Source: Halioglobus sp.
GTDB lineage: Bacteria; Pseudomonadota; Gammaproteobacteria; Pseudomonadales; Halieaceae
Length of the DNA stretch: 50,375 nucleotides
Assembly: GCA_020443425.1 (NCBI GenBank)
Contig: JAGRIE010000005.1
Span: forward strand, 1-50,375
Reading direction: 5' to 3'
Shown: positions 402 through 40,400 of the stretch, one piece after another
Position numbering within the stretch: position 1 is the first letter of the stretch
Layout of the letters: the number at the start of each line of letters is the position of its first letter
Program-made: the position numbers and the translations under genes
The notes under the pieces: model-generated
Database searches by the model: none
What the model saw: only the letters and a program-made list of their open reading frames with translations
What the model was told of the DNA's origin: nothing

Positions 402-1055
402 CTAGTTATCGCTAGCAATAATCCCCTCGCGGATCGCGTAGTGCACCAGATCGGCAACACTGCGGGCGTTCAGTTTTTGCATGAGGTGCTGCCGGTGGGT
501 GTGGACGGTCGGCAACCCCAGGCAGAGTTTGTCAGCCACTTCCCGCGTGGGGTAGCCCTCCGCCAGCAGTTGCAGCACCTCGCGCTCGCGCTCGGTCAGC
601 GAGGTGAACGCATTCTCCGCGGTATCACCGCGATGCTGCGACTCCAGAAAGCCTCCCAGCACTTCCGGGCTGATATACATTTTTCCCGTCATAACCGTAC
701 GAATCGCTTCCAGCAGCTCACTGGCCGCACTGTTTTTAGGCACATAGCCGCGCGCGCCGGCACTGAGCATTTCAGAGACCATGCGCCCCTTCATGTGAAT
801 GGAAAGCCCCAGCACCTTGACCTGCGGGAAACTCGCCCTGATCTGCCGCGTGGCCTCAATGCCGTTCAACTCGGGCATATTGATATCCATCACCACCACA
901 TCGGGCGCGACGCGCTCGACCATACCCAGCACTTCCCGCCCGTTGCCCGCCTCACCGACCACCGTCAATTCCTGACGCGAGTCGAGCAGCAAGCGCAGTG
1001 CAGACCGCATCACTTCATGGTCATCCGCCAGCAGTATCCGGATATCTTTAGGCAC
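402..1055 (-). CDS. NarL/FixJ-type response regulator
   Basis: Two-component response regulator, 217 aa. The receiver domain (about 5-120) shows the acidic pair D11-D12, the phospho-acceptor D57 in VMDINMPELNG and the conserved lysine in YVPKN. A LuxR/NarL helix-turn-helix follows (about 145-210, LTEREREVLQLLAEGYPTRE). The start is a GTG at 1053-1055 that overlaps the kinase stop by 8 bp, which implies translational coupling. Its partner is therefore the adjacent HisKA_3 kinase. Target genes are unknown. The IS3 end lies only about 50 bp past its stop codon. Confidence 0.93.
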   Translation of the reverse strand: MPKDIRILLADDHEVMRSALRLLLDSRQELTVVGEAGNGREVLGMVERVAPDVVVMDINMPELNGIEATRQIRASFPQVKVLGLSIHMKGRMVSEMLSAGARGYVPKNSAASELLEAIRTVMTGKMYISPEVLGGFLESQHRGDTAENAFTSLTEREREVLQLLAEGYPTREVADKLCLGLPTVHTHRQHLMQKLNARSVADLVHYAIREGIIASDN

Positions 1056-3192
1056 GCATCATCTCCAGAGGCACATCGAGCACCACCTCCGTACCCACAC
1101 CGGGTGTCGATACAATCTGCAGGCTGCCACCCGCATGGCGGATATATTCACGGATATTGAACAGCCCGAAACCACCCGAGGGCGAAAACCCCCTGCCCGC
1201 CTGCTCGGCGTCAAAACCCACGCCATCGTCTTTCACGCAGATACGCAAGCTGTCCGGCGTTTGCGCCAGATCCACACAGGCCCATGTCGCGCCCGCATGT
1301 TTCATCACATTCACCAGCAACTCGCGTGTGGAACGGTACAGTGCTATCTGGTTGTCCATCGACATCGGCAGCAGCCTGGCAGTCCCGCTGAATTCAAAAT
1401 CGATGGAGTACTCACGCCGCATGCTGGAGCACAGCTCTTCCAGTGCCGCGGCCAGCCCGAGTTCGTTGAGCATGGGGCAGCTCAGCTCGAACGTGAGGGT
1501 GCGGGTTTCATCGAGCGCCTGCTGCACGATGCCACACACTGTTTCGACAGCACCGCTTGCACCATCGGGCAGCGGCAGGTCCTTGAGCATACTCAACCGC
1601 AGCAGCGATGAACTCAACAACTGGCTGACGCCGTCGTGCAACTCGCGGCCGATGCGCTCTCTCTCACGCTGCTCAGCCAGCGACAACTGGGACGCCAGCC
1701 TGCGCAGCTCGGCACGATTCTGTTCCCGTTCGCGTTCATGGGCGACGCGTTCAGTACTGTCGCGAACAACGCCGCAGATCACCGGCCGGCCGCGCAGGAA
1801 AAAAGAGAAGGCGGTAGTCTCCGTCGGAAACAGGGTGCCGTCCTTCTTGCGGTGCTGGCCGGCAAAGGGCGGCGCCGACGCGGCAGACAGCACCGTCGCT
1901 ATCATGGCCCCGGAGGCATTCTCATCGGCGCTGATCTGATCGTGGGTCAGCTGCAGGAACTCCGCCCTCGAATACCCGTAGAGTCGCACTGCCGCCGCGT
2001 TGACATCCACATAGCGGCGCGTGTCGCCGTCAAAAATCACAATGGCGTCAGACTCCGACTCAAACAGTTTTCGGTACTTCTCCTCACTTTCCTGCAGGGC
2101 CTGCTCCACTCTTTTCTGGTCCTCGATAAACCGCGCCTGCTGCACATTCTGGTAGGCTGCATTGGAAAGCTGCCGGGCCAGCGTAAAAAGCGCTTTGGCA
2201 ATACTCTGGAATCGCTCGGGCGCCATCACCGGAACACGGTAGTACGCCGCCACCACCGCCTCTTCATCAGCTCCGCATGCGCGCGCGTTCATGCGCACCT
2301 GCCGCGGCGACCACAACTCGTCGCGCACCTGGCCGATCAGCCAGGTGGCGACATGCAGACCATCGAGCTCAATACTGGCGGCGGCGTCCCACAGTCCGGT
2401 GACGGGACACTGCTGAATGACCGGACCCTGCGCATGGGGCAGTTCTGCCACCTTGCGCGATGTGAAACAGTTGGCCCCCGCAACCTCGCCAGCGGGCGCC
2501 AGGTAGTGGCAGTAATCGACAAAATTACTCGGCTCGGTTATCGCAACACCGTCCGCATCCACGACGATAGAGGCCACCCCGGCAGCCGTGGCGAACTCAT
2601 CCTGGATGTGCTGGATCTCGGGCAGATTGAACAGGTCGCCAAATGCAATATCCCCGGGCTGGTCCAGCGGCCGGGTCAGCGCCAACACCCGCTTTTGCAG
2701 CGCCTGTTGCAGGCGCTTGAGCTCGGTCACATCCATGAAATTGACAACCACGCTGTCGAGCCGGTTGTCCTGCGTAAATACGGGCACGGCACTGCCGGTC
2801 AACCAGGTAATCTCCGCGCTCCCCGAGCGCTGCACACCCATGCACTCATAGGCGACACTTTTACCTGTCTTGAGCACCTGGTTCAGGGGATAGTCTTCGA
2901 CATCGACCACAGAGCGGTCGGCGAGCAGGAACTGCCAGTCCGGGTCAAAGGGTTCCTCTCCCGCCATCTGCCCGGGCGTTATGCCAAGCAAGTGGCAGGC
3001 CTGCGGATTGCTGTAGACCACAGCGAGTTCGGTGTCGTGCACCACCACACCTACCAGCAGACTGTCGACGGTGGACTTAAAGCGCGCCTCACTGCCCTGC
3101 AGTTCGGCGGAACGCTGCTCGACCAGCCCCTCCAGTTGCCGGATTGAGGCAACGAGATCGGACTCGGCCTGCCTGTCTTGACCTGCGGACAT
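1048..3192 (-). CDS. PAS-PocR-PAS sensor histidine kinase (NarX/DegS class)
   Basis: Hybrid-input sensor kinase of 714 aa with no predicted membrane segment. Domains in order: PAS (about 36-160), a PocR-like ligand-sensing domain (about 183-345, with cysteines C228, C242 and C262), a second PAS (about 372-485), a HisKA_3 dimerisation domain with phospho-acceptor H519 in RELHDGVSQ, and a HATPase with DDGVGFD and GGFGLFNIREY. HisKA_3 kinases pair with NarL-type regulators, matching the overlapping downstream gene. PocR domains are known from propanediol/cobalamin regulators and are thought to bind small organic ligands; the ligand here is unknown. The lack of membrane helices suggests a cytoplasmic sensor. 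The Shine-Dalgarno before the ATG at 3192 is weak. Confidence 0.88.
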   Translation of the reverse strand: MSAGQDRQAESDLVASIRQLEGLVEQRSAELQGSEARFKSTVDSLLVGVVVHDTELAVVYSNPQACHLLGITPGQMAGEEPFDPDWQFLLADRSVVDVEDYPLNQVLKTGKSVAYECMGVQRSGSAEITWLTGSAVPVFTQDNRLDSVVVNFMDVTELKRLQQALQKRVLALTRPLDQPGDIAFGDLFNLPEIQHIQDEFATAAGVASIVVDADGVAITEPSNFVDYCHYLAPAGEVAGANCFTSRKVAELPHAQGPVIQQCPVTGLWDAAASIELDGLHVATWLIGQVRDELWSPRQVRMNARACGADEEAVVAAYYRVPVMAPERFQSIAKALFTLARQLSNAAYQNVQQARFIEDQKRVEQALQESEEKYRKLFESESDAIVIFDGDTRRYVDVNAAAVRLYGYSRAEFLQLTHDQISADENASGAMIATVLSAASAPPFAGQHRKKDGTLFPTETTAFSFFLRGRPVICGVVRDSTERVAHEREREQNRAELRRLASQLSLAEQRERERIGRELHDGVSQLLSSSLLRLSMLKDLPLPDGASGAVETVCGIVQQALDETRTLTFELSCPMLNELGLAAALEELCSSMRREYSIDFEFSGTARLLPMSMDNQIALYRSTRELLVNVMKHAGATWACVDLAQTPDSLRICVKDDGVGFDAEQAGRGFSPSGGFGLFNIREYIRHAGGSLQIVSTPGVGTEVVLDVPLEMMRA

Positions 3193-3436: not shown

Positions 3437-4387
3437 TCACCTGACAGTGTTGCGCCCGCAATTCTTGGCGTCGTAGAGCGCTTCGTCGGCGCGGGCCATG
3501 AGGTTTTCCATCTGCTCACCCGGCTGCAGCTCGGCGACCCCGATACTGCAGGTGAAATGGATGTCATCCAGCGGGGTGCTCTCAATGGTTGCCCGGTACC
3601 GCTCCGCCAGCCGCTGGGCAGTGGCATAATCCGTGTTGGGCAGCAGTATCACAAACTCCTCGCCACCGATGCGGCCGACAAAATCGGTCTTACGACTGCA
3701 TTCCAGCAGGGCATCGGCTGAGGTTTTCAATACCCTGTCGCCCATCTGGTGGCCGTGGGTGTCATTGATGCTTTTAAAATGGTCGAAGTCCAGCATCAGC
3801 AGGGACAGGGGGTACTTCTGGCGCTGTGCGCGATCAATCTCTATATCGAGCACCCGGTTAATTTCACGGCGGTTCAGCAGGTTCGTCAGCGGATCCCTGT
3901 AGGCGATCCGCTCGAGCTCTTCGGTGCGCTGGGCGACCTTGGCCTCCAGTGATCGGTTGCTCTCGACCAGCGCCTCCTTGGCCTCCTGTAGTTCCTCCAG
4001 CCTGGCTTGCATATCCATGCGCGACGGCAGCGCTACCAGCACCGGCAGCAGCCTCCACAAGACAATCGCGGTGGTAATGGAAATCAGACCCGTTGCGATC
4101 TTGGCGACGCCTTCAACATAGTAGTAGCCATGCCATACATTAATCACACCAATAATGTGGGTAAGGCCGCAAAACAGAATGAAACAGGCAAACAGCAGGA
4201 ACAGGGAATTGAACCTGAGATCGCGTCGCACCAGTACCAGCCGCACAAGGACAAACGGAATCAGGATATAGGCGAGCGCGGTTGTTAAATCGCCCACCAC
4301 GTGCAGGAACAACAAGTCTTCCCGCCACAGGAAGCAGTGGCCGTGGGGCATAAAACTACCGTCGAAAAATGTCTCTGCAACTGTCAT
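3437..4387 (-). CDS. Diguanylate cyclase with ethylene-receptor-like copper-binding membrane domain
   Basis: Predicted inner-membrane diguanylate cyclase, 316 aa from the ATG at 4387. A GTG at 4435 would add 16 residues, but homologous bacterial domains usually begin close to the FMPHGHCFLW motif. Three N-terminal helices resemble plant ETR1. In numbering from the longer GTG start, ETR1 residues D25, Y32, I62, C65 and H69 correspond to D49, Y56, I86, C89 and H93, a constant offset of 24. The ETR1 lysine K91 also has a counterpart, four residues closer. C65 and H69 hold Cu(I) in ETR1. A coiled-coil linker leads to a GGDEF domain with GGEEF and an upstream RKTD inhibitory site, so c-di-GMP synthesis with product inhibition is expected. 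Ligand sensing (ethylene or another copper-bound molecule) is inference. Confidence 0.88.
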   Translation of the reverse strand: MTVAETFFDGSFMPHGHCFLWREDLLFLHVVGDLTTALAYILIPFVLVRLVLVRRDLRFNSLFLLFACFILFCGLTHIIGVINVWHGYYYVEGVAKIATGLISITTAIVLWRLLPVLVALPSRMDMQARLEELQEAKEALVESNRSLEAKVAQRTEELERIAYRDPLTNLLNRREINRVLDIEIDRAQRQKYPLSLLMLDFDHFKSINDTHGHQMGDRVLKTSADALLECSRKTDFVGRIGGEEFVILLPNTDYATAQRLAERYRATIESTPLDDIHFTCSIGVAELQPGEQMENLMARADEALYDAKNCGRNTVR

Positions 4388-4719
4388 AGGCGAAAGTCTC
4401 TGGCAATCATTTTTATTGGCGTGGATCACTGCCACCGCAGCCCACTGCGCGGGAAAGCCCTCCCCCGTCGCCTGCGCCCGGTATCGATGTGACCGTGTAA
4501 CAGCTTACCGCCTTTTCCACGGATTGTATCGGAGCGGGCCGAATCGATCACTAACCGGGTCGCGACCATCAGCGTTTGCGGCAGTGCGTTGACATCCGGA
4601 TAGCACGGCGCGGGACCGGTTTTCAAAATGCTGGCAAAAACGTGTAAGGTGGCGCATCCGTCCCGCCGGCCGCCTCTCAACAGGGCATTGGCACGGCGAT
4701 AAAGTAGTTGGTGAGAACA
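4388..4719. other. Divergent intergenic region, no clear element
   Basis: About 330 bp separate the diguanylate cyclase from the EamA gene and should contain both promoters. I see a TTGACA at 4589-4594 without a matching -10, and a weak candidate near 4619-4648 (TTTTCA, 17 bp, TGTAAG) on the plus strand. No convincing repeat, small gene or RNA was found. Confidence 0.3.
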
Positions 4720-36302: not shown

Positions 36303-38984
36303 CTACTTGTGCCTGGCCGGTGTCAACAGCCGCGCAATCGAGGGTGTCGCGGGGGAGTTACCACTGCTGTTCAGGGCATCGTAGTAGGACCGCAGCCAGA
36401 CCTTGAATTCGGCGGCCGGCTGCGGACGGCTGAACCAGTAGCCCTGGGCACTGTCACAGCCGCGCTCACGCAGGTAGTGCATTTGTTCCGCCGTCTCCAC
36501 CCCCTCGGCGACCAGGTGCAGCGACAGCTCCCGGCCGAGGCCGAGAATGGTCTCGGTCAGCGTCATCGCGTAAGCATCGTCGGGAATCTTGCTGACAAAG
36601 AATGCATCAACCTTCAGCGTATCGATGGGGAACTTCGCCAGGTAGCTCAGCGAGGAATACCCGGTGCCAAAATCATCGATCGCGATCTTGACGCCCTCCG
36701 CCCGCAGTTGCTGCAGCGCCACGGTGGCGCGCGGTGTATCCTGTGTCAGCAGGCGCTCAGTGATCTCGACTGTCAGGTCGGTGCGGCGCGAGCAGGCCTT
36801 CACATCCTCAACCCAGCGATCCAACTCACCCACCCGATCGAAAAAGATGCGTGGCGAGATATTGACCGACAGGGCCGGTGGCGGCAGGCCCAGCGCGTGC
36901 AGGGACTCCATGAACAGCGTCGCCTGCTGCATCACGAAACGGTCAATTTCCGTGATCAGCCCGGTCTCCTCCGCCAGCGGGATAAAGGCATCCGGAGAGA
37001 TATATTCACCGTCCTCCTGCCAGCGCACCAGCGCCTCACACCCCATTGCTCCCGCACTGTTGAGCGGCACAATCGGCTGGTAGTGCACTTCCAGTCGACG
37101 CTCGGACACCGCCAGCGCCAGCTTGTTGATCAGGCGGTGGCGCTCCTCCGATCGCTGCTGTAACTCACGGGTGAAGAAAGAGTAGTCATTGCGCAGGCAT
37201 TTTTTCACCTCATACATCGCCTGGTCCGCATTGATCAGCAGGGTATCCGTATCGGTGCCATCGTCCGGGAACACCGCGACGCCGAGGCTGGCGCTGACGA
37301 ACACCTGCCGCGAGTAGATTTCAAACGGTTCGCGCATCACCGACACGATTTTCTCCGCCACCAGGGACGCCGCCTCTGACGTCGCCACGTCGGGCAGGAT
37401 GACGGCAAACTCGTCACCACTCAAGCGCGCCACCGTATCCGACTTGCGGGTACAGGCCCGGATGCGTTTCGCCGCTTCCACCAGCAGCACATCTCCCCCG
37501 CTGTGCCCGAGATTGTCGTTCACGGATTTGAAGTTATCCAGGTCGATGAAGAGCAGTGCCAGGCGCTGATGGCGGCGCTGGGCGGCGAGGATTTCGCGCT
37601 CGAGGAAGGTGTCAAACTGCTGCCGATTGGGGAGATTGGTCAGGCTGTCCCGCGTGGCCTGACGCTCGATGGTCTGCATGAATTCCATGCGCTCGGTGAT
37701 ATCCTGGATCCCGCCGACGATCTCCACGACCTTGCCGTTCTGCAGCACCGGGTTTCCCATGATCCGCAGCCAATGTGCGCCGTCCTCCCGCTTGAAACGC
37801 AGCTCAATATCAAAAGGTTCCGCGGTCGCGAAGGCGTGGCGTACCGCTTCCTCGAGTTCCATCTGGGATTGCTGTGGCAGCAGTGACAACACATATTCGC
37901 GGGTGGCGACATCACAGCGCGGCATGCCCACAATACTGGAGAACTCCTCGCTGAAGTACAGCACATCGGACTGCTCCACAATTTTCCAGCCCGCCACGGC
38001 AGCCAGCTTTCCGGCCTCCTGTAACAACTGCTCATTGGCGCGAACCTGCTGCTCATAAAACTTCTGCTTGTTGCGCGCCACCCGCAGCAACCACAGGAAG
38101 ATCACCCAACCCGCGGCGATACACAGTGCCATCAATCGAAGGAACCAGACGCCGGAGGCGAGGCCGGCCAGCGGCGGGTACTGTGCCGCCATCAACCAGT
38201 TGCCGGACGCGACCGGTACCGGCAGCAGGATCACATCTTCTGTAGAGAACAACTCTGCGGGGCCGTAGAATACCTCGCCGCGGCTACCCTGGCCGTCCAC
38301 GCCCCGTACTGCAATTTTCAGGCCGTGGCGATTGGAGGCGAGACCGGCCGCCGCGAAGACTTTGCCCGCATCCATGGTCGCCGACACGATGCCCCAGAAT
38401 TCACTGCTGCCATCCTCACCGGGCACAAACACCGGCAGACGACCGATGAGGCCGACACCGCCCTGCACCAGTTTCACTGGTCCGGCCAACACCGCAGCCC
38501 CCTCATCCCGGGCGCGCACTACCGCATCGCGCTGCGAGGGGGTCTTGAGGTAGTTCAGGCCCAATGCCTCTTCATTGCCCGCCAGCGGATACACCCGGTT
38601 GACCACCAGCCCGGGCGCAGCGGCCATATTGATCAGGAAGTCCTGGCGTGCAAAAATCGCCGCCGCAAACGCTTCAAACTCGCGCTGGGTGATATCGGGA
38701 TTGGACGCGATATACGCTGCCAACCCCTCCACGGCGGACAGGTGCGCGCCCAACTGCCCCACCAACCGCTGGGCGACAAAATTCAGTTCATGCGTAGCTT
38801 CGAGCTCGGCCTGCTGGCGACCGTTCTCTACATAGGACTGCTCGAAACCCAGCTCCACCGGAAATACCGAGGCAAACACCAGCAGGCAGGCCCAGGCCGA
38901 AACCTTCTGGCGCAGGACCAAAAATAACGCGCACCCTGACAGCGCCGCAATCATCAGCAGGTAGAGCGGTGCATTACTAATCAT
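36303..38984 (-). CDS. CHASE-PAS-GGDEF-EAL c-di-GMP signalling protein
   Basis: Inner-membrane protein of 893 aa. Helix 1 (about 5-45), a periplasmic CHASE ligand domain (about 60-245), helix 2 (about 275-302), PAS (about 315-435), GGDEF (about 440-595) and EAL (about 615-865). The cyclase site is SGDEF (522-526) with an RKSD inhibitory site upstream. The EAL part keeps CEALVRW, DDFGTGYSSLSYL and EGVET, so phosphodiesterase activity is likely. Which activity dominates is unclear. The ATG at 38984 is preferred to a GTG at 39023. It lies 32 bp from the convergent reductase gene with a 6-bp GC hairpin (36280-36294) between. Confidence 0.9.
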   Translation of the reverse strand: MISNAPLYLLMIAALSGCALFLVLRQKVSAWACLLVFASVFPVELGFEQSYVENGRQQAELEATHELNFVAQRLVGQLGAHLSAVEGLAAYIASNPDITQREFEAFAAAIFARQDFLINMAAAPGLVVNRVYPLAGNEEALGLNYLKTPSQRDAVVRARDEGAAVLAGPVKLVQGGVGLIGRLPVFVPGEDGSSEFWGIVSATMDAGKVFAAAGLASNRHGLKIAVRGVDGQGSRGEVFYGPAELFSTEDVILLPVPVASGNWLMAAQYPPLAGLASGVWFLRLMALCIAAGWVIFLWLLRVARNKQKFYEQQVRANEQLLQEAGKLAAVAGWKIVEQSDVLYFSEEFSSIVGMPRCDVATREYVLSLLPQQSQMELEEAVRHAFATAEPFDIELRFKREDGAHWLRIMGNPVLQNGKVVEIVGGIQDITERMEFMQTIERQATRDSLTNLPNRQQFDTFLEREILAAQRRHQRLALLFIDLDNFKSVNDNLGHSGGDVLLVEAAKRIRACTRKSDTVARLSGDEFAVILPDVATSEAASLVAEKIVSVMREPFEIYSRQVFVSASLGVAVFPDDGTDTDTLLINADQAMYEVKKCLRNDYSFFTRELQQRSEERHRLINKLALAVSERRLEVHYQPIVPLNSAGAMGCEALVRWQEDGEYISPDAFIPLAEETGLITEIDRFVMQQATLFMESLHALGLPPPALSVNISPRIFFDRVGELDRWVEDVKACSRRTDLTVEITERLLTQDTPRATVALQQLRAEGVKIAIDDFGTGYSSLSYLAKFPIDTLKVDAFFVSKIPDDAYAMTLTETILGLGRELSLHLVAEGVETAEQMHYLRERGCDSAQGYWFSRPQPAAEFKVWLRSYYDALNSSGNSPATPSIARLLTPARHK

Positions 38985-40400
<1,416 letters not shown>

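Follow-up and report, generated by a model that had tools for sequence, protein, structure and literature searches.

The window, by which we mean the whole 50,375-nucleotide stretch of Halioglobus sp. DNA that was analyzed, carries on its minus strand a gene in which a sensor domain of the ethylene-receptor type (EBD) is joined to a GGDEF domain. Genes for a histidine kinase and a response regulator follow downstream (Table 1). Position 3437 is the final base of the stop codon of the EBD-GGDEF gene and 4387 is the A of its ATG. A GTG at 4435 is an alternative start, which would extend the protein by 16 residues to 332 amino acids. All nine EBD-GGDEF proteins of alignment A2, which was trimmed to the Met at the ATG position, have Met there, and reading of the relatives' untrimmed frames revealed no likeness upstream of it. 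Based on these two observations the ATG was preferred. An earlier sequence-only reading had described a real open reading frame, with coordinates taken from the ATG and residue numbers counted from the GTG; residues are numbered here from the ATG unless stated otherwise.

Table 1. Features of the EBD-GGDEF locus (window coordinates; residues counted from the ATG)
Feature	Coordinates	Strand	Remarks
EBD-GGDEF gene	3437..4387	-	316 aa from ATG 4387, stop included
PHGHCFLW motif, residues 14-21	4325..4348	-	N-terminal; from alignment; poorly placed in model
Helix 1 (23-53): D33, T36, Y40, I43, P44	4229..4321	-	AF2 model and residue mapping
Helix 2 (60-86): I70, C73, H77, presumed Cu(I) site	4130..4210	-	AF2 model and residue mapping
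Helix 3 (89-119): K96, T99, S103, P115	4031..4123	-	AF2 model and residue mapping
Long helix 123-163, presumed coiled-coil signalling helix, helix 3 to cyclase	3899..4021	-	AF2 model
GGDEF domain (162-313), GGEEF 241-245, I-site R232xxD235	3449..3904	-	Pfam 163 bits and motifs
PAS-PocR-PAS histidine kinase	1048..3192	-	next gene downstream; Pfam domains
Response regulator, Response_reg and GerE (LuxR-type)	402..1055	-	after kinase; Pfam domains

Clustering by blastp placed homologues of the kinase and regulator downstream of the EBD-GGDEF gene in two further loci (L037 and L038), where reading suggested an extra lipoprotein-like frame in between. Among 23 loci the kinase cluster was common to the window and these two only, while the regulator cluster was also seen in L055, on the opposite strand and 3.8 kb off. 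The PAS-PocR-PAS kinase is a possible partner of the EBD-GGDEF protein; PocR has been predicted to sense derivatives of simple hydrocarbons (Anantharaman and Aravind 2005, cited in PMC11507031 and PMC8784404). Apart from the gene itself no cluster occurred in more than 4 of the 23 loci, whose flanks were examined over at most 8 kb in either direction, so the gene context names no signal. Elsewhere in the window, positions 36303-39023 encode a second c-di-GMP protein, whose sequence reads as a sensor followed up by PAS-like, GGDEF and EAL regions (L004, GGDEF matched), and a frame at 8-319 resembles by eye the end of an IS3-type transposase.

The N-terminal part of the protein had been proposed to be an ethylene-receptor ligand domain, and profile searches bore this out. 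The Pfam family ETR1_N (PF25487) scored about 105.7 bits (cut-off 27, E = 1.6e-30) and matched in none of 14 control genomes, indicating that the match is not due to chance; the window's own genome contains one such domain. No rival Pfam family matched over residues 25-119, so the search against Pfam that had been suggested as a check did not find a better-scoring unrelated three-helix family. Three transmembrane helices are supported by the model helices of Table 1 and by hydropathy peaks.

The residues claimed at ETR1 positions D25, Y32, I62, C65 and H69 (D49, Y56, I86, C89 and H93 in GTG numbering, offset 24) are indeed there, and I35, P36 and F61 are matched at the same offset. The claim that this offset is constant held for helices 1 and 2 and failed in helix 3, where K91, T94, S98 and P110 lie at offset 21; the counterpart of K91 is thus present, as K112 in GTG numbering. 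Counted from the ATG, ETR1 D25, Y32, I35 and P36 correspond to D33, Y40, I43 and P44, F61, I62, C65 and H69 to F69, I70, C73 and H77, and K91, T94, S98 and P110 to K96, T99, S103 and P115. We take ETR1 Y32 to be a residue needed for ethylene binding. The ethylene-binding residues that could be named (D25, Y32, I35, P36, I62, C65 and H69, a subset, as PMC6586836 mentions further essential ones) are all present in the window protein, and I35, P36 and I62 are among those required for binding in ETR1 (PMC6586836). AzoEtr1, the proven receptor of Azospirillum, has D35, C75, H79 and K98 (PMC11819568), and in both AzoEtr1 and the window protein the spacing between the H69 and K91 positions is three residues shorter than in ETR1. 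Across 26 cyclase rows of a larger comparison D25, Y32, I35, P36, F61, I62, C65, G66 and H69 were unchanged, as were the K91, T94, S98 and P110 columns; the T68 column had S in two rows. The same ETR1 columns were conserved at 0.91-1.00 in 69 other EBD rows, L017 deviating at Y32, P36, I62 and C65 among others. Together with the profile score and the confident model described below, this conservation supports the assignment. Because the domain belongs to the ethylene-receptor family, the sensor very probably binds Cu(I).

For the output domain, Pfam GGDEF matched with 163.2 bits (cut-off 23.8), and the GGEEF and I-site RxxD motifs are intact, which agrees with the earlier description of an intact cyclase fused to the sensor. 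The sole further Pfam match at E <= 0.01 was the Cas10 palm domain, lying over GGDEF and below its own cut-off. D200, D202, N208 and D217 are invariant across the nine rows of A2. NCBIfam matches are confined to the linker and the cyclase part, and of these just the general GGDEF domain model exceeded its cut-off. With the GG[DE]EF motif, the metal-binding Asp residues and the profile score all in place, the protein is predicted to be an active diguanylate cyclase. No histidine kinase output domain was found in it, GGDEF being the only Pfam output; it may thus have an ethylene-receptor-like input and yet would not be a two-component receptor.

A structure was predicted with AlphaFold2 from alignment A4, in which ETR1_N is matched by every one of the 73 members. 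GGDEF is matched by 23 of them, namely the window and 22 cyclase rows of full length; the remaining 50 are sensor fragments. The model (mean pLDDT 92.4) contains the four helices of Table 1 followed by a GGDEF fold, the first 20 residues being poorly placed; its pTM of 0.64 makes the placing of the domains relative to one another uncertain. Comparison with solved structures gave 99 fold matches at E <= 0.001, and the titles of the best 50 all read as diguanylate cyclases; GCN4-WspR (rank 1) and DgcB (rank 14) have their GGDEF domain behind a coil. No sequence match of the sensor part to solved structures was found. Input, fold and output of the protein are well supported by sequence.

The distribution of the sensor was analyzed by scoring as positive each genome with a match over the ETR1_N cut-off. 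Such genomes numbered 6 of 18 in the genus, 10 of 140 in the family and 43 of 391 in the order; among genomes drawn from the class and the phylum they were 10 of 274 and 31 of 397, respectively. Nine of the ten positive genomes of the family, including that of the window, have the EBD-GGDEF gene. In the tenth (G284, locus L026) the gene product consists of EBD and coil and lacks an output domain. Scanning a single genome of each species yielded at least 591 stretches, at least 554 of them encoding a relative, and since only the best 80 were kept the following counts are biased to close relatives: 22 of these loci encode short EBD-coil-GGDEF proteins, 3 combine GGDEF with EAL, 45 match the kinase model and 10 none of these. 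The top 21 by E-value are all EBD-GGDEF, with L063 lower; one of the 22 short cyclases (L060) has GGEEY in place of GGEEF. The draws from phylum and order added 56 new best-scoring EBD loci, 50 matching the kinase model, one with a longer GGDEF protein and 5 with neither, and none with a short EBD-GGDEF protein. This zero understates the family, because two short EBD-GGDEF proteins picked for their length, L184 (from the Dasania genome of L052) and L185, were found among lower-scoring order hits.

Other arrangements of the domain were also seen. Split ethylene-receptor-like pairs, in which a short output-less EBD protein is followed by a same-strand frame, occur at five of the six loci looked at (L026:1306-3288, L013:1420-3282, L186:385-2501, L065:6264-8231 and L134:1420-3285; L058 was cut). 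The second frame, taken from stop to stop, begins either ahead of the end of the EBD protein or no more than about 110 bases away from it; the EBD protein has a short tail only in L134 and a charged coil in the other four. In L026, from the window's genus, the second frame matches the kinase model, and by reading those of L013, L186, L065 and L134 resemble sensor kinases or their beginnings. At L109:2653-3078 an EBD is followed by what reads as a chemoreceptor-like signalling domain, a possible ethylene chemoreceptor.

In a tree of EBD sequences (95 rows, a small number of columns at 115, midpoint root, L185 left out, bootstrap not fully settled) a single branch, supported at 100/98, separates the 26 cyclase rows from all other rows. 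They come from Halieaceae, Rheinheimera, Arsukibacterium, Alteromonas, Catenovulum, Paraglaciecola, another Alteromonadaceae, Dasania and Methylophaga. Named strains with the gene exist in Rheinheimera, Alteromonas, Methylophaga and Haliea. Many of these genera live in water. The Paraglaciecola row is placed among Rheinheimera, a position that hints at gene transfer. Plasmid carriage of a full EBD was considered and rejected: in none of the 722 matching records did a single place span 80% of the protein, and the 15 matches listed all start at residue 89 or later and so cover no full EBD.

Four columns separate the cyclase clade from the other 69 rows: G32, T36, N83 and G100. The others have mostly S at the first, I at the second (62/69), T at the third (46/69) and A at the fourth (64/69), and the window residue at G32, T36 and G100 occurs in 0.03, 0.09 and 0.07 of them. 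The T36 column is that of ETR1 I28; the G32 and G100 columns presumably equal ETR1 S24 and A95. I28 is among the ETR1 residues near copper, and position 95 is not exposed (PMC6586836). As G32, T36 and G100 are less bulky than the S, I and A found there in most other rows, they are consistent with an enlarged pocket whose natural ligand would be another small unsaturated molecule, such as propylene, isoprene or some other Cu(I)-coordinating gas. The occurrence of ethylene and propylene users in the Halieaceae (PMC4036023, PMC6440738) fits such a ligand. However, every nameable residue needed for ethylene is present, T36 is not indispensable (25 of 26 cyclase rows have it, and L027 has I by reading), and other known Haliea use neither ethylene nor propylene (PMC6440738). 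We regard such another small unsaturated molecule in a widened pocket as a rather unlikely natural ligand. For ethylene itself the chances are about even; it is the best single guess, since the residues that can be compared are kept and are common to proven bacterial receptors, AzoEtr1 with the same residues binding ethylene (PMC11819568). Another olefin is kept in view because the clade has substitutions of its own next to the copper site.

Since the marine ethylene users of the Halieaceae have a pMMO-like enzyme, alkene oxidation genes were sought as well. The pMMO profile (PF04744) matched one of 140 family genomes and none of the nine EBD-GGDEF carriers. Di-iron monooxygenase (PF02332) matched 21 of 140 at E <= 0.001, 20 of them over the cut-off; 3 of 9 carriers matched versus 18 of 131 others, a difference that is not significant (Fisher p = 0.13), although nine carriers are too few to reveal a weak link. 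Neither profile was found in the window's genome (94% complete), a result that weighs against ethylene as the signal, and ethylene or another alkene as its growth substrate was therefore rejected. In one carrier (G309, L043:2-2185) PF02332 monooxygenase genes and the EBD-GGDEF gene are some 6 kb apart; a genome of the same genus (G310, L044) has no PF02332 match. Proteins with PilZ, which match at six places in the window's genome and in 5 of 14 control genomes, are candidate c-di-GMP effectors.

A second conserved element precedes helix 1. PHGxCxxW is present in all 26 cyclase rows, and among the 69 other rows P14 is kept in 64, H15 and C18 in 68, and G16 and W21 in all; H15 and C18 thus occur in 94 of the 95 rows compared. 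To our knowledge plant ETR1 lacks the PHGxC motif. From the positive-inside rule we infer that this motif and the WHGYY loop lie outside the cell, where PHGxCxxW may form a copper-capture site of bacterial EBDs. The near-invariance of H15 and C18, on what would be the outer side, could mean that the protein is a Cu(I) sensor whose cyclase is set by metal loading and not by gas. We think this improbable: the motif is equally kept in the other rows, which are mostly of the kinase type, the KD of 1.3e-15 M reported for ETR1 (PMC6586836) fits a cofactor better than a graded signal, and no copper gene was recognized beside the EBD-GGDEF gene when the ORF lists of the window were read and five ORFs scanned. 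A copper ATPase profile does match the window's genome; it also matches all 14 controls and carries no weight.

Selection on the sensor was estimated from comparisons of the window with three relatives. The dN/dS of the EBD was 0.052, 0.070 and 0.073 (0.04-0.10 among the three relatives), ratios that are rough because dS is near or beyond saturation (1.1-1.8 for the EBD and uncomputable for the enzyme in two of three comparisons). In dN the sensor was slower than the enzyme in all three comparisons, with 0.07-0.13 versus 0.17-0.18 for coil plus GGDEF. The EBD is under purifying selection. These data bear on whether the domain is just a membrane anchor and dimeriser of a constitutive cyclase. 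No regulation of any member is known to us, as such a role would have it. Yet none of the 26 rows has a change in the copper-site residues, whereas over the whole protein the 22 cyclase rows, the closest two excepted, are down to 48-57% identity with the window, and substitutions accumulate less rapidly in the sensor than in the enzyme. An anchoring role alone is thus highly improbable.

Overall, the data argue for a membrane diguanylate cyclase that is probably gated by ethylene, or a close olefin, bound to Cu(I). The domains, the intact residues, the single group in the tree and the confidence of the fold are observations, whereas we infer the copper, ligand, dimer, direction and gating in this scheme. 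By analogy with ETR1 and AzoEtr1 each chain would bind a single Cu(I) within its three helices, with C73 and H77 on either side and D33 setting its position, and membrane-dissolved ethylene or a close small olefin would bind the copper. Movement of helix 3 (K96, T99, S103 and P115) would then be relayed by the 123-163 helix and alter how two GGEEF domains meet, which would change c-di-GMP synthesis; the I-site would limit this synthesis. In A. brasilense ethylene and disruption of the receptor each reduce biofilm (PMC11819568). If this sign is kept, ethylene would lower the output of the cyclase, as it is associated with lower output or biofilm for ETR1 and AzoEtr1, and on this analogy inhibition is somewhat more probable than activation.

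If the gating is real, a copper receptor of the plant-hormone type would set the biofilm messenger c-di-GMP in one step, without a phosphorelay; an uncomplicated c-di-GMP reporter would then suffice to test bacterial ethylene sensing, and c-di-GMP could be switched by a gas. A broader reading, to which we give little credence, is that of a one-protein olefin-receptor family of single origin in Gammaproteobacteria, many of them marine, that has the copper site of plant ethylene receptors, whose pocket widened on the clade branch and which would directly report a non-ethylene olefin, or ethylene from sunlit organic matter or algae, as c-di-GMP in the choice between swimming and attachment.

EBDs with varied outputs are already known, and the EBD-GGDEF proteins are a coherent subfamily that couples a known sensor with a known enzyme. 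Figure 2D of PMC7700396, on bacterial domain arrangements, may already show this architecture. No report of an experimentally tested EBD-GGDEF protein was found in the open-licence literature searched, and PMC8846402, which reviews the stimuli of c-di-GMP signalling, contains neither the word ethylene nor the word copper in its main text. GGDEF also occurs in longer EBD proteins (L090, L107 and L108 with EAL; L011 and L014 cut at the locus end); these are far larger, and the tree separates them from the short cyclases. A like GGDEF fold behind a helical linker is seen in WspR, DgcB and other coil-linked enzymes, whose inputs are unrelated. Plant ETR1 shares D25, Y32, I35, P36, I62, C65, H69, K91, T94, S98 and P110 with the window protein and differs in its GAF and kinase output and in having S24, I28 and A95 where the window protein has G, T and G. 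SynEtr1/UirS (Slr1212) of Synechocystis likewise has a three-helix bacterial EBD and affects surface behaviour; unlike the window protein it is a light-sensing histidine kinase with further domains (PMC5812497, PMC6682694). AzoEtr1 of Azospirillum brasilense, a non-photosynthetic proteobacterium whose ethylene response includes biofilm, has the same ligand domain with the D, C, H and K residues and the same three-residue shortening between the H69 and K91 positions; it is of the two-component type with a predicted response regulator, whereas the window protein has its diguanylate cyclase in the same chain (PMC11819568).
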